DNA of 64,000 nt from Candidatus Sumerlaeaceae bacterium (lineage in GTDB: Bacteria; Sumerlaeota; Sumerlaeia; Sumerlaeales; Sumerlaeaceae): assembly GCA_026418615.1 (NCBI GenBank), contig JAOAAY010000006.1, positions 62,001-126,000 on the forward strand, given 5' to 3'. Position numbers and translations under genes: made by a program. Positions within the stretch are counted from its first letter, which is position 1. Each line of letters begins with the position of its first letter. The notes under the pieces are model-generated. The model had not been told where the DNA came from and did not search any database. It saw nothing but the letters and a program-made list of their open reading frames with translations. Positions 1,557 through 6,904 of this stretch are shown here, piece after piece.

Positions 1557-3986
1557 TTACCGCTGCTTTCCCGTGGGCGCTTTAGGATGCGGCCTCCTTG
1601 CGTTTTTCTCCTCCAGAGCCAGCGCCAGCACTTCGTCCATGTGTTTGACGAAATGCAGTTTGAGCCGTTCGCGGGCGTCGGCGGGCAGCGACTCGAGGTC
1701 GCGCCGATTGCGCTCGGGCAGGATGACCTCGCGCACGCCCGCGCGGGCGGCGGCGAGCAGTTTTTCTTTGATGCCGCCGACGGGCAGCACATTACCGCGC
1801 AGCGAGATTTCGCCCGTCATGGCGAGGTAATTCCTGACGCGGCGCCCCGTGAACAGCGACGCGAGGGCTGCGGCGAGCGTGATGCCGGCGGAGGGGCCGT
1901 CCTTGGGGATGGCGCCGGCCGGGATGTGGATGTGGATGTCGCGCTGAGTGAAGAGGGCGTCTTCGATGCCAAGGCGGGCGGCCTGTGCGCGCAGGTAGGT
2001 CAGCGCGGCCTGCGCGCTCTCGCGCATGACTTCACCCAGTTGTCCGGTCAGCGTGAATTTGCCGGTGCCGGGGGTCATCATGGTCTCGATGAAAAGGATT
2101 TCGCCGCCGACGGGTGTCCAGGCAAGGCCGATGGCGACGCCGGGCATTCCCATGCGCTCGGCCATGTCGCCGTGGAACTTGGGCGGACCAAGGAATCCGG
2201 GCACTTCCTTAGCCGTGACCGTGACTTTGCGAAAGTCGCTGTTTTCGGCGGCCTTGCGGGCCACTTTGCGGCAGACGCTGCCGATCTCGCGCTCGAGGTT
2301 GCGCAGGCCGGCCTCACGCGTGTACTCCTCGATGATGCGTCGCAGGCCCGCGTCCGTGAAGCGCACATGGGCCGGCGTGAGGCCGTTTTCCTTCATTTGC
2401 TTAGGCACGAGGTATTTGCGTGCGATGGCAAGTTTTTCGGCGGCGGTGTAGCCGGGCAGTTCGATGACCTCCATGCGGTCGCGCAGGGGCGGGGGCACGG
2501 TGTCGAGCATGTTGGCGGTTGTGATGAACAGCACGCGCGACAGGTCAAACGGCAGATCGAGGTAGTTGTCTGTGAACGAGTAGTTTTGTTCCGGGTCGAG
2601 CACCTCGAGCAGGGCGGCGGATGGGTCGCCGCGGTAGTCGGCGCCAAGTTTGTCAATTTCGTCGAGCATGATGACGGGGTTGTTGGCGCCGGCCTGTTTG
2701 AGGGCCTTGATGATGCGGCCGGGCATGGCGCCGACATAGGTGCGGCGGTGGCCGCGGATTTCGGCTTCGTCGCGCATGCCACCCAAGGCGATGCGGTGGA
2801 AGCGGCGGCTGAGCGCGCGGGCGATGGACCGGCCCAGCGAGGTCTTGCCGACGCCGGGCGGTCCGGCAAAGCACAGGATCGGGCCTTTCATGTCGCCCGT
2901 CATGCGGCGCACACTCAGGTATTCGAGAATGCGCTCCTTGATCTTCTCCAGACCGTAATGGTCTTCGTCGAGCACTTCGCGGGCGCGGGAGATGTCGAGA
3001 GTATCCGTGGTGCTCTCCGTCCATGGCAGGTCGAGAATCCAGTCAAGGTAGGTGCGTGCGACGCTGTATTCGCCAGCGCCGGGCTGCATGTTGCGCAGGC
3101 GCCGGAGTTCCCGGTCAGCGGCCTGACGCGCTGCTTCGGGCAGGCCCTTGGCCTCGATGCGCGCGGCCAATTCTTCGAGTTCCTGCGAGGCGCCCTCCTC
3201 CTCGCCCAATTCGCGGCGAATGGCCTTGAGTTGCTCGCGCAGGACATACTGGCGCTGGTTTTTGTCCATCTCGCTTTTGACCTGCGACTGGATCTTGCTG
3301 CCGAGTTCCATGACCTCGAGTTCGCGGCTGAGGATGAAATGAACGCGCTGCAGCCGTTTTTTCACATCGGTGAGTTCAAGGATTTCCTGCTGCTCGGCGA
3401 TCTTGAGCGAGAGGTTGGAGGCCACCATGTCGGCCAGTTTTGAGGGATCGTTGAGATTGAGCGCCGCCGTTTTGAGATCCTCCGGCAGGGAGGCGAGTTC
3501 CACCGCGCGGCTGAGTTGCCCAAGGAGATTCTTGACGAGGGCCTCCGTCTCGGTGTCGTTGGCGGGCGTCTCGTGCAGCACCTCGATGCGTGCGCGCAGG
3601 AACGGCTCCTCTTGCAGCGGCTCGACGAGGCGCACGCGGTGGGTGCCATGCAGCAGCAGCCGCACGGAACCGTCGGGCATTTTCAGCATGCGCAGGATGT
3701 TGGCCGCCGTGGCCACTGTGTAGAGGCTTCTGAAATGGGTCAGATCCTCGCCGTCGGGCCGCTTGCAAACGACGGCAATGACGCGCTGGGAACTGAGCGC
3801 ATCGTCCACGAGGCGCTTGCTTTTGTCGTCGCCGATGAGCACGGGCGCCACCATGGAGGGAAACAAGACAAACGCATCCATGGGCAGGACCGACAGTTCC
3901 GAGGGAGGAATGTCCTCCTTGTCCTGCTCGTCCCCGGGTTTGTCAGATGTTTGAGTGTCTGGCGTGCCGGATGAGTCCTCGGACAT
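1557..3986 (-). CDS. lon: ATP-dependent endopeptidase La (Lon)
   Basis: This 809-residue protein has the full Lon layout: an N-terminal substrate-binding LON domain (about residues 30-230), a coiled-coil linker, an AAA+ module with Walker A GPPGVGKTS, and a C-terminal protease domain. The Ser-Lys dyad is visible as Ser699 in DGPSAGIT and Lys742 in GGIKEKL, with the 43-residue spacing known from E. coli Lon. It is a cytoplasmic hexamer degrading misfolded and regulatory proteins. It starts at ATG 3986, 21 bases after the hsp20 stop, so the two are probably co-transcribed. The length is normal and all motifs are intact. Confidence 0.97.
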   Translation of the reverse strand: MSEDSSGTPDTQTSDKPGDEQDKEDIPPSELSVLPMDAFVLFPSMVAPVLIGDDKSKRLVDDALSSQRVIAVVCKRPDGEDLTHFRSLYTVATAANILRMLKMPDGSVRLLLHGTHRVRLVEPLQEEPFLRARIEVLHETPANDTETEALVKNLLGQLSRAVELASLPEDLKTAALNLNDPSKLADMVASNLSLKIAEQQEILELTDVKKRLQRVHFILSRELEVMELGSKIQSQVKSEMDKNQRQYVLREQLKAIRRELGEEEGASQELEELAARIEAKGLPEAARQAADRELRRLRNMQPGAGEYSVARTYLDWILDLPWTESTTDTLDISRAREVLDEDHYGLEKIKERILEYLSVRRMTGDMKGPILCFAGPPGVGKTSLGRSIARALSRRFHRIALGGMRDEAEIRGHRRTYVGAMPGRIIKALKQAGANNPVIMLDEIDKLGADYRGDPSAALLEVLDPEQNYSFTDNYLDLPFDLSRVLFITTANMLDTVPPPLRDRMEVIELPGYTAAEKLAIARKYLVPKQMKENGLTPAHVRFTDAGLRRIIEEYTREAGLRNLEREIGSVCRKVARKAAENSDFRKVTVTAKEVPGFLGPPKFHGDMAERMGMPGVAIGLAWTPVGGEILFIETMMTPGTGKFTLTGQLGEVMRESAQAALTYLRAQAARLGIEDALFTQRDIHIHIPAGAIPKDGPSAGITLAAALASLFTGRRVRNYLAMTGEISLRGNVLPVGGIKEKLLAAARAGVREVILPERNRRDLESLPADARERLKLHFVKHMDEVLALALEEKNARRPHPKAPTGKQR

Positions 3987-4007: not shown

Positions 4008-4472
4008 CTACTCGATGTTGATGCGGATCTCGCCCTGCTGGGCACCGCGGGGGATGGTGACGGTGAGGAAGCCGTCGCGCAGGACGGCCGACACATCGCG
4101 CAGTTCCATCGAGTCGGGCAGGCGGAAGACGCGCTCGAACGGGCCGTAGTGGATCTCCATCAGGTGATAGTTCTCGTTCTTGGCCTGGGGCGTGTGCAGC
4201 CGGCGTCCGCGCACGATGAGAAAGTTGTCGCTCACCTTCACCTCGATGTCCGACTCGGCCACGCCGGCGATTTCCATGCGGATGACGATGCAGTCGTCCG
4301 TCTCGAAAACATCCGTCGGCGGAATCCAGGCGCGGCTGCTGGGCCAGAAGCCCGTCTTGCGCAAAGAAAAGAAATTGTCGAGCACGCGCCCGAACACGGA
4401 CGAATCGCTCAGGTCGTCTGGCTGGGCCTCGAGGGTCACCAGTCCGGAGTCATACTTTTTCACGGCTGTCAT
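4008..4472 (-). CDS. Small heat shock protein, Hsp20 / alpha-crystallin family
   Basis: I chose the ATG at 4472 (MTAVKKYDSG, 154 residues) instead of the 226-residue ORF, whose first 72 residues are Gly/Arg-rich low-complexity read-through. An N-terminal arm of about 45 residues is followed by an alpha-crystallin domain with the usual strands (DCIVIRMEIAGV, FLIVRGRR, GPFERVFRLP, DGFLTVTIPR) and a C-terminal I-x-I anchor (IRINI) that docks neighbouring subunits in the oligomer. The protein is an ATP-independent holdase for unfolding clients. It sits directly upstream of lon, so holding and degrading of damaged proteins are likely expressed together. Confidence 0.93.
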   Translation of the reverse strand: MTAVKKYDSGLVTLEAQPDDLSDSSVFGRVLDNFFSLRKTGFWPSSRAWIPPTDVFETDDCIVIRMEIAGVAESDIEVKVSDNFLIVRGRRLHTPQAKNENYHLMEIHYGPFERVFRLPDSMELRDVSAVLRDGFLTVTIPRGAQQGEIRINIE

Positions 4473-4693
4473 CCTGCCGGTCAACAAGGAATCCGGGCGC
4501 CCGCCGCCGCACCACCGCCGCCGCCCACCCCGACTATCAACCACGCCGCACAGGCCAATCGCAACAGGTAAGTCCAAGCACCACCCGCGTCCCGGCAAGG
4601 TGCCCCGGAGCGGCCAAGGCCCGCGCCCCCCACCGAGGGGGTCGGACGAGTCGTCATGGTCGCGTCCGCTGCCGGCACGAGAGGCCATGGGCT

Positions 4694-4741: not shown

Positions 4742-4910
4742 AAAATGAGGCACTGAGGTTAGTGTGACTGCAGCCTGTGCTCAGAGCCTGCTCACCAGAC
4801 TCGCGGACAGGCGAGCCGATAAAGAGGTTTTCATCGTGACACTCGTGAAGCCGTGCGAGGGCAATGCACGCGTATTGAATGCCGAAGAGTTTGGATGCGC
4901 AACCCGTGAA

Positions 4911-4934
4911 ATTGGTCAACCGTCCCCGTATTTA
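4911..4934 (+). repeat. Single plus-strand copy of the TCAACCGTCCCCGTATTT repeat
   Basis: ATTGGTCAACCGTCCCCGTA followed by TTTA contains the exact 18-base core. The bases before it (GTTTGGATGCGCAACCCGTGAA) also resemble those before the next copy at 5099 (GGTTCGCATGTGCAACTCTAAA), so the repeated unit is longer than the core. Confidence 0.75.
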
Positions 4935-5085
4935 GCCCACGGCACGGTCGGCTCTTCAGCGCGCTCATGACCGCGTATGTGCCCGGGTGGCGCGGGATGG
5001 ACCTCGAGCGGCGCAACGGCCGCCCACCGAAAAAAGCGAGGTGCAGTCGGTGACACGCTTGGTGGCGAATGGTTCGCATGTGCAA

Positions 5086-5176
5086 CTCTAAAAATTGATC
5101 AACCGTCCCCGTATTTTTTAATTGATCAACCGTCCCCGTATTTTTTAGAGAAATTAGTCAACCGTCCCCGTATTTG
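5086..5176 (+). repeat. Triple tandem TCAACCGTCCCCGTATTT repeats inside a palindrome
   Basis: Three exact 18-base cores start at 5099, 5126 and 5158 (spacings 27 and 32). The first two are enclosed by a perfect 9-base inverted repeat, CTCTAAAAA (5086-5094) and TTTTTAGAG (5142-5150). The pattern of short GC core, A/T-rich flanks and inverted partner copies at 4694-4741 looks like REP-type elements that are mobilised in trans by IS200-like Y1 (RAYT) transposases. No such transposase lies in this window. Confidence 0.75.
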
Positions 5177-5215
5177 GTGCCACGAGTGATTGTGATACGA
5201 ATGGGCTTCGTGCGC

Positions 5216-6463
5216 TCACTTGAGTCGCTGTCGTCGGGGGGGCGGGTTGAGGATGGCTTCGGCGCGGCCTTTGATGGCGGTGAGGGGAACGGCGGTGGCG
5301 GCGTCGTAGCCTTTGAGGATACAACCTCCGGTGAGGCTGAGGCCGCCGACTCCGTGCATGCCTTGCACGAGGAGGTCGTCGGGGATAGCGGTGACGGGGG
5401 CGAAATAATGGCCCTCGGGGACGCTGAACTCCCACGGGGGCAGTTGTTCAACACCTATGGGTTGGAGGCTGTCGGGCAGTTCGGCGCCGTTACGCCACAG
5501 GCGGCCGTTGCGGACGGCAAGGCGATCGCCGGGCAGCCCGCAGATGCGCTGGAAGTAGTCGCGGATGTTGACGCTGTACACATTGCTTTGGAAGCCCGGG
5601 CACTCGATGGAGAACCGGGGCGGGTCAAAATAGATGATCTCGCCGAGGCGCGGCTCGCGTAAGAAGAAGGCGGCATGGTTCACCAGGACGAGGTCGCCAG
5701 CCTTGATGACGGGGGCTGAGGAGGACTTGAAGACCCGCACGAGTGAGAATAGGTTGGAGTTACGCGTACTGGTGGCGAGGAAGCCGATGAGGGCAAAGAC
5801 GATGGCCCCGCCAATGAGGATAGCGCTGGCGCGGGTGCTCCAATGGTTGCGGTCGAGCCATTTGACGGAGCGCGCGACGGTCGCCCAGAGGAGGAGGATC
5901 ATCAGGATGAGGACGGGGAGCAGGTACTGGATGCCCGTGAAGAAGATGCCGGCAAAGAACAGAAGAGCGAACCACATGGCGATAGAGTTGCGCGCGGACC
6001 ATTGCTGACCGTTGATGCGGACGGCGGTGACGACGGCGTCGTTCCAAATGAACAGGTGTAGCAACAGGAGGGTGAGCAGGAGGAAGTTCGAATAGGGCTC
6101 GAAGAAGGTTGCGATGCAGAGGGCGAGCAGGGCGGCCCACGCGGCGGCAAACAGGGCGGCTTTTGCCAGTTGGTGATTGTAGCACTGGCCGAGCCCGGGC
6201 ACGATGCTGAGCAGGCCTGCTCCAAAGGGGAACCGGTAGGGCAAGTTTTCGGGCAAGGCCCAGTAACGGCGAAGCGGGTTGCGGCGCCAAAGGCGCTCGA
6301 GGGTGCCGCGGGCGATCAGTGCGAGGTCGGATTCCCGGTCGCGGTCGGCCTGACGGAGGGATTTCTTCACCTCGGCCTCGTCGTGCACCAGCAGGGCGTT
6401 ACACTTCAGGCACCGGGTGCTCGTGTCGGTGTTGCGGAAGTCGCAGACGGGGCAGACTCTCAT
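5216..6463 (-). CDS. Zinc-ribbon multi-pass membrane protein with signal-peptidase-I-like domain lacking the catalytic lysine
   Basis: The N-terminus carries a zinc ribbon (CPVC at 4-7, CLKC at 18-21). Several membrane segments follow between about residues 82 and 232, and then a periplasmic S26 signal-peptidase-like domain. The serine box aligns as SSAPVIKAGD (248-257), equivalent to SMxPTLxxGD, so the nucleophile position is kept as Ser248. The general-base lysine of the KRxxGLPGD motif is replaced by Gln305 in DYFQRICGLPGD, and the C-terminal GDN box is not recognisable. By family knowledge this should not cleave preproteins. It may be a pseudo-enzyme or binding protein. ATG 6463; the 89-residue gene precedes it on the same strand. 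Confidence 0.75.
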   Translation of the reverse strand: MRVCPVCDFRNTDTSTRCLKCNALLVHDEAEVKKSLRQADRDRESDLALIARGTLERLWRRNPLRRYWALPENLPYRFPFGAGLLSIVPGLGQCYNHQLAKAALFAAAWAALLALCIATFFEPYSNFLLLTLLLLHLFIWNDAVVTAVRINGQQWSARNSIAMWFALLFFAGIFFTGIQYLLPVLILMILLLWATVARSVKWLDRNHWSTRASAILIGGAIVFALIGFLATSTRNSNLFSLVRVFKSSSAPVIKAGDLVLVNHAAFFLREPRLGEIIYFDPPRFSIECPGFQSNVYSVNIRDYFQRICGLPGDRLAVRNGRLWRNGAELPDSLQPIGVEQLPPWEFSVPEGHYFAPVTAIPDDLLVQGMHGVGGLSLTGGCILKGYDAATAVPLTAIKGRAEAILNPPPRRQRLK

Positions 6464-6634: not shown

Positions 6635-6904
6635 TCAGCGCTCGAGTTCCTGTTCGCGGCGGCGCTTTTCCTCTTCGGTTTCGACCCGTTCGGCAGGCTT
6701 TTCCCAGTCGGGGCGCTGGATGCGGATCTCCCGGTGGATGGGGCCGATAATCTCTTCGAGGAAAGCGCGATAGTCGCGCAGGCGCTGCTCGTCGGCGCCG
6801 TCAATCTGGACAAAGATTTCGCCCGATTTGGTGATGCGGATTTCGATGTCTTCGTAAGGCAAGACGGTCCGGCTCCCGCTCGATGCTGCCGTTTTGTCGT
6901 ACAT
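6635..6904 (-). CDS. Small conserved-looking protein of unknown function
   Basis: This 89-residue protein starts at ATG 6904. It has a beta-strand pair (DIEIRITKSGEIFVQIDG), a central helix rich in charged residues (EQRLRDYRAFLEEIIG) and a highly charged C-terminal helix ending in EEEKRRREQELER. The fold suggests a small cytoplasmic binding protein, but I do not recognise the family with certainty. It lies 171 bases upstream of the signal-peptidase-like gene on the same strand. The clear domain-like character, and the absence of a better frame, support it being real. Confidence 0.6.
   Translation of the reverse strand: MYDKTAASSGSRTVLPYEDIEIRITKSGEIFVQIDGADEQRLRDYRAFLEEIIGPIHREIRIQRPDWEKPAERVETEEEKRRREQELER

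Follow-up and report, generated by a model that had tools for sequence, protein, structure and literature searches.

The locus described here raises the question of what a membrane protein with the fold of a signal peptidase does when the catalytic residues of that family are replaced, that is, whether it is a pseudoenzyme or a protease that uses a different base. It lies in a window of 64,000 nucleotides (the whole stretch of DNA analysed, from a genome of Candidatus Sumerlaeota, family Sumerlaeaceae), and the gene and the parts of its product, here called pseudo-S26, are the following:

5216..6463, minus strand: putative pseudo-signal-peptidase membrane protein, an ORF with an ATG start, 415 aa (PF10502; TIGR02227)
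6401..6454, minus strand: N-terminal zinc ribbon, residues 4-21, CxxC-x10-CxxC (C4, C7, C18, C21)
5768..6229, minus strand: DUF5683-like membrane region, residues 79-232 (weak PF18935 match, 0.0034; helices in the AF2 model)
5228..5761, minus strand: S26-like domain, residues 235-412 (Pfam stretch 226-354; AF2 core; Foldseek)

The 415-aa ORF matches Peptidase_S26 (PF10502) in Pfam with an E-value of 1e-12, scoring 48.8 bits where the cut-off is 22.9, and the NCBI equivalog TIGR02227 (signal peptidase I) with 52.8 bits, against a cut-off of 47. Pfam, TIGR02227 and Foldseek all place the protein in Peptidase family S26, which bears out its initial description, made from the DNA letters, as a signal-peptidase-like membrane protein; the CxxC-x10-CxxC motif and the helices likewise confirm the fusion to a zinc ribbon and extra membrane segments that had been claimed. 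The AF2 model, built from eight sequences, has a moderate overall quality (pLDDT 69, pTM 0.44); confidence is higher for the S26 core, with a pLDDT of about 80-92 over much of it. The best Foldseek match of the model was SipA from Streptococcus pyogenes, followed by SpsB and E. coli LepB. The cysteines C4, C7, C18 and C21 are invariant in 21 homologues from the class and in the wider alignment with other phyla. The DUF5683-like region contains a GLGQxYNxQxxKA motif followed by transmembrane helices, and hydropathy predicts roughly three membrane helices for most class members, with roughly two additional ones in the family of the window and in one other. A simple calculation from hydropathy and loop charges suggests a topology with the N-terminus and the zinc ribbon inside the cell and the S26 domain outside.

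With regard to catalysis, three sites of the S26-like domain are of interest:

5720..5722, minus strand: Ser248, in the column of LepB Ser90 (alignment with active S26 enzymes)
5549..5551, minus strand: Gln305, aligned with LepB Lys145 (Q in Sumerlaeaceae, usually E in other members, K in none)
5375..5392, minus strand: [S/T]358-x4-[D/E]363, residues 358-363, family-specific, replacing the GDN box

The sequence-only reading had put Gln305 in the place of the general base of LepB, and our alignment agrees in this with the register obtained against S. aureus SpsB and the B. anthracis SPase in a separate profile search of solved structures. It was also right in that the Met after the serine is lost, Ser249 standing at LepB Met91, and in that the GDN box is unrecognisable, its place being taken by PVTAIPDD. 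Ser248 does align with LepB Ser90, as had been proposed, but the serine did not hold up as a retained feature of the family. In fact, in an alignment of 26 members (21 from the class and 5 from other phyla), only three have Ser in this column, the others having T (7), V (5), L (3), A (2), Y (2) and further residues, and with such variation Ser248 has to be considered incidental. Gln is shared in the base column by 7/26 members; this column otherwise contains E (14), G (2), A (1), S (1) and one gap, and Lys in 0/26. The GDN box is gone in 26/26, with the glycine and the aspartate replaced in all and the asparagine in nearly all, and where active enzymes have box E (GDN...S.DSR) the family presents [ST]x4[DE], with S or T at 358 in 20/21 class homologues (23/26 in the wider set) and D or E at 363 in 19/21 class homologues. 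Several structural residues are kept, namely P251, G256, D257, P271, G274, G312, G326, P335, P349 and R411. The active controls, including two canonical S26 peptidases encoded by the same genome (L001 and L002), all have S and K, with either GDN or GDC. These two loci answer the call of the sequence-only reading for a second, normal lepB and rule out that pseudo-S26 is the sole signal peptidase of its genome.

The possibility of a protease with a different base, left standing by the initial reading, did not survive: the S26-like domain contains no Lys, His or Cys that is conserved across the aligned family members. Whether another Lys or His could approach Ser248 was judged from this conservation, and not from geometry, with the same negative outcome, and an alternative catalytic base was ruled out. 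The absence of Lys from the base column, the presence of Ser in 3/26, the loss of GDN and the lack of any substitute Lys, His or Cys strongly support a pseudoenzyme family, which was the other alternative offered, and it is very likely, as judged from these residues, that protease activity is missing throughout. The pattern extends to distant phyla and is kept in full-length homologues of 33-52% identity; therefore, it is due neither to chance nor to a one-off mutation or a sequencing error. At the family level, the S26 fold with both residues of the dyad replaced coexists with an active paralogue, as expected for a dead signal peptidase, and the window protein departs from this pattern in that its residue 248 is still a serine. 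In a tree of S26 domains the active enzymes cluster together (0.885); the deep branches are poorly supported and the module members from other phyla are long-branched, because of which one loss of the dyad and several losses are indistinguishable.

The conserved S/T358 and D/E363 at the former GDN box, together with E/Q305 at the old Lys column, could in principle form a new catalytic set replacing Ser90 and Lys145. We consider such a rearranged protease very improbable, given that it would work without any conserved Lys, His or Cys, that the Gln305 of Sumerlaeaceae is incapable of acting as a base, that S/T358 is missing in several module members of other phyla and that paralogous modules of two Sumerlaeaceae genomes, described below, have no detectable S26 domain. 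The loss of the catalytic residues might instead reflect a decaying, non-functional gene, an idea to which we attach practically no weight: most of the 26/39 class genomes with a relative, and distant phyla as well, carry full-length frames, the zinc cysteines are invariant and the structural S26 residues are retained. The [S/T]358-x4-[D/E]363 motif may rather line a binding pocket, by analogy with the polar pocket of SipA (PMC4049620).

The clue to a function comes from the neighbouring genes. Relatives of pseudo-S26, mostly full-length, were found in 26/39 class genomes, and a scan of genome contigs with a narrower alignment gave 7 loci, the named relatives being MAGs of Candidatus Sumerlaeota / BRC1. 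Tandem pseudo-S26 gene pairs were seen in G021 and G029 (L092, L093). The gene directly upstream in the window is:

6635..6904, minus strand: DUF2997-like small protein of 89 aa (intermediate HMM)

Its true start is probably the TTG before PYEDIEIRIT. This ORF has no Pfam match at the gathering score of DUF2997 (PF11211), and its homology is based solely on an intermediate HMM, which was built from Sumerlaeota copies only and recovered the bona fide DUF2997 of G300 at 1e-11 and a weaker one of G167 at 5e-9. The DUF2997-like gene adjoins pseudo-S26 in 10 class genomes and in 5 genomes of other phyla. Furthermore, in six genomes from five other phyla a protein without the dyad clusters with both DUF1257 and DUF2997; five of these clusters, each contiguous, add a Ycf46-like AAA ATPase and a TPR protein, and three add a PilT-like ATPase:

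G257: AAA, DUF1257, TPR, DUF2997, PilT, S26, contiguous
G339: DUF1257, TPR, DUF2997, S26, PilT, plus a fragment of AAA where the contig ends
G300: AAA, DUF1257, DUF2997, S26, TPR, followed by a PilT-like gene that spans two frames (named by reading)
G311: AAA, DUF1257, DUF2997, S26, TPR, contiguous
G167: AAA, DUF1257, TPR, DUF2997, S26, contiguous
G304: fused DUF1257-DUF2997 ORF adjoining the dead S26 (L198, 7664-8374)

According to phylum-wide searches, G257, G300, G339 and the pair G167/G304 each come from a different phylum, and G311 falls in none of these, so that there are at least six bacterial phyla in which dead S26 relatives stand beside the same gene set. For G339, the contig is short and the assembly carries about 5% contamination, and in G311 the S26 domain can hardly be recognised from its sequence, with no Pfam S26 match. 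Within the other phyla the dead S26 is sporadic (1/8, 1/35, 1/3 and 2/2 genomes), which suggests horizontal spread. A second DUF1257-DUF2997 pair occurs in G167 (L137, 6805-7571), and no S26-like gene was detected alongside it.

Within the class, a sensitive DUF1257 model detected the domain in 28/39 genomes, comprising all 26 with pseudo-S26 and 2/13 of the remainder (G023 and G036, both incomplete assemblies), and 11 genomes had neither. This co-occurrence gives a Fisher value of 5e-8, without phylogenetic correction, and together with the neighbourhoods it assigns pseudo-S26 to a module with DUF1257 and DUF2997. In the window genome the module is split, with AAA and DUF1257 on one contig (C69) and DUF2997 and pseudo-S26 on another (C80), and many class genomes have DUF1257 next to TPR. 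DUF1257 is also found without pseudo-S26, in cyanobacteria and in G023 and G036. In G257, in G339 and in the second module of G002, the PilT-like genes score above the curated PilT/PilU cut-off; every class genome has 6 to 20 matches to PilT-family ATPases, so that co-occurrence is uninformative for PilT and its link to the module relies on adjacency in a few genomes. Second modules in the Sumerlaeaceae genomes G002 and G003 keep AAA, DUF1257, DUF2997 and TPR (L145, 3431-8405; L179), with PilT seen in G002, and no S26 domain was found in their zinc ribbon-membrane proteins of 240 and 223 aa. The S26 part therefore looks accessory to the membrane subunit. An anti-phage defence module was considered and rejected, as PADLOC gave no match for pseudo-S26 or DUF2997, and its similarities to IetA and TRIP13 concerned the AAA domain alone.

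Downstream of pseudo-S26 lie two further ORFs, both named by reading, which are conserved as neighbours:

4008..4688, minus strand: Hsp20-like ORF (cluster 3, 6 loci; Sumerlaeaceae only)
1557..3986, minus strand: Lon-like ORF (cluster 2, 6 loci; Sumerlaeaceae only)

A 27-nt repeat (AATTGRTCAACCGTCCCCGTATTT-like) occurs four times (expected 0) in the spacer downstream of pseudo-S26, at 4910-4936 and 5093-5178; no copy was present elsewhere in the window, and the repeat may represent an element dispersed through the genome. No RNA fold was found in this spacer.

The reading that we favour, with a probability of about 0.72, is that this catalytically dead S26 homologue provides a conserved ATPase module with its membrane subunit. 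Since the same motor and adaptor genes accompany its relatives in at least six phyla, it seems to be a constant component of an unstudied membrane machine. The partners would be the Ycf46-like AAA ATPase, a DUF1257 protein (Ycf35-like, with a hydrophobic N-terminus), the TPR protein and DUF2997, with the PilT-like ATPase in three genomes of other phyla. A cytosolic zinc ribbon would be followed by three membrane helices (about five in Sumerlaeaceae) and by an S26 fold placed outside as in LepB. We infer that these proteins form a complex in which the cytosolic partners would dock on the zinc ribbon and the former active-site cleft would bind, but not cut, an exported peptide or protein, pseudo-S26 thereby coupling an outside client to ATPase work inside. 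A role in envelope assembly or client handling is our leading guess, by analogy with SipA and from the PilT neighbour. Only tentatively do we go as far as an undescribed machine, present in at least six phyla, in which the Ycf46-like AAA protein (with a PilT-type motor in some) is coupled, by way of DUF1257/DUF2997/TPR adaptors and the zinc ribbon, to a pseudo-signal-peptidase outside the membrane that holds exported clients, pilin-like or other, and leaves them uncut.

Two other roles would require a different set of partners. Pseudo-S26 could act independently of the AAA/DUF1257 module by binding signal peptides or preproteins, and so aid or regulate the active LepB of its genome, a proposal that fits the retained S26 fold, the presence of active S26 paralogues and the SipA precedent (PMC4049620). 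Nevertheless, it is unlikely, since the gene is unlinked to the lepB genes, and its linkage to DUF2997 and co-inheritance with DUF1257 over six phyla point elsewhere. The Hsp20-like and Lon-like ORFs downstream in six Sumerlaeaceae loci, and the fact that protein unfolding is common to Lon and AAA ATPases, would also suit a membrane receptor passing envelope proteins to ATP-dependent degradation; however, this linkage is confined to one family and the downstream genes differ in other families and phyla, which leaves such a proteostasis factor with little credit.

The proposed membrane subunit has several partial precedents. SipA (PDB 4N31), in which the nucleophile and the base are replaced (Asp48, Gly85), has no peptidase activity and is needed for pilus polymerisation (PMC4049620). 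Besides being the top structural match, it shares with pseudo-S26 the S26 fold and the replacement of both residues, but it is a Gram-positive sortase-pilus protein of one lineage and lacks the zinc ribbon, the extra helices and the AAA/DUF1257/DUF2997 partners. LepB and SpsB (MEROPS S26; TIGR02227) resemble it in fold, in the register of boxes B-D and in the predicted location outside, whereas they have the Ser/Lys dyad and GDN that it lacks, and pseudo-S26 adds the zinc ribbon and the DUF5683-like region. Active S26 proteins with a DUF5683-like membrane domain (L068, L069 and L072) have a similar hydrophobic N-terminal region, but retain S and K together with GDN or GDC and show no zinc ribbon; proteins of this type are a possible source of the pseudo-S26 architecture. 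To our knowledge, SpsA of Staphylococcus aureus is not fused to a zinc ribbon or to extra helices. SpsA is similar in being an inactive SPase paralogue that coexists with the active SpsB in one genome, and differs in that no association with a module is reported (PMC12445088). Finally, the cyanobacterial DUF2997-ycf35(DUF1257)-fed7 cluster has the same DUF2997 and DUF1257 neighbours but, as described, a ferredoxin in place of the zinc ribbon-TM-pseudo-S26 protein, TPR and PilT (PMC4284462).

Dead signal peptidases are known from a few Gram-positive bacteria, and here a whole family appears to be dead and is tied to a gene module. As these proteins pass the NCBI equivalog cut-off, automatic annotation will name them signal peptidase I. 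The linkage of pseudo-S26 to the DUF1257/DUF2997/AAA/TPR (/PilT) module, unseen in the sequence-only reading, is new, and no published description of such a module was found in the open-access literature, in which DUF2997 is mentioned by just 2 papers. Moreover, it suggests a membrane partner for the DUF1257 and DUF2997 proteins (Ycf35 and its relatives) of cyanobacteria and algal plastids.
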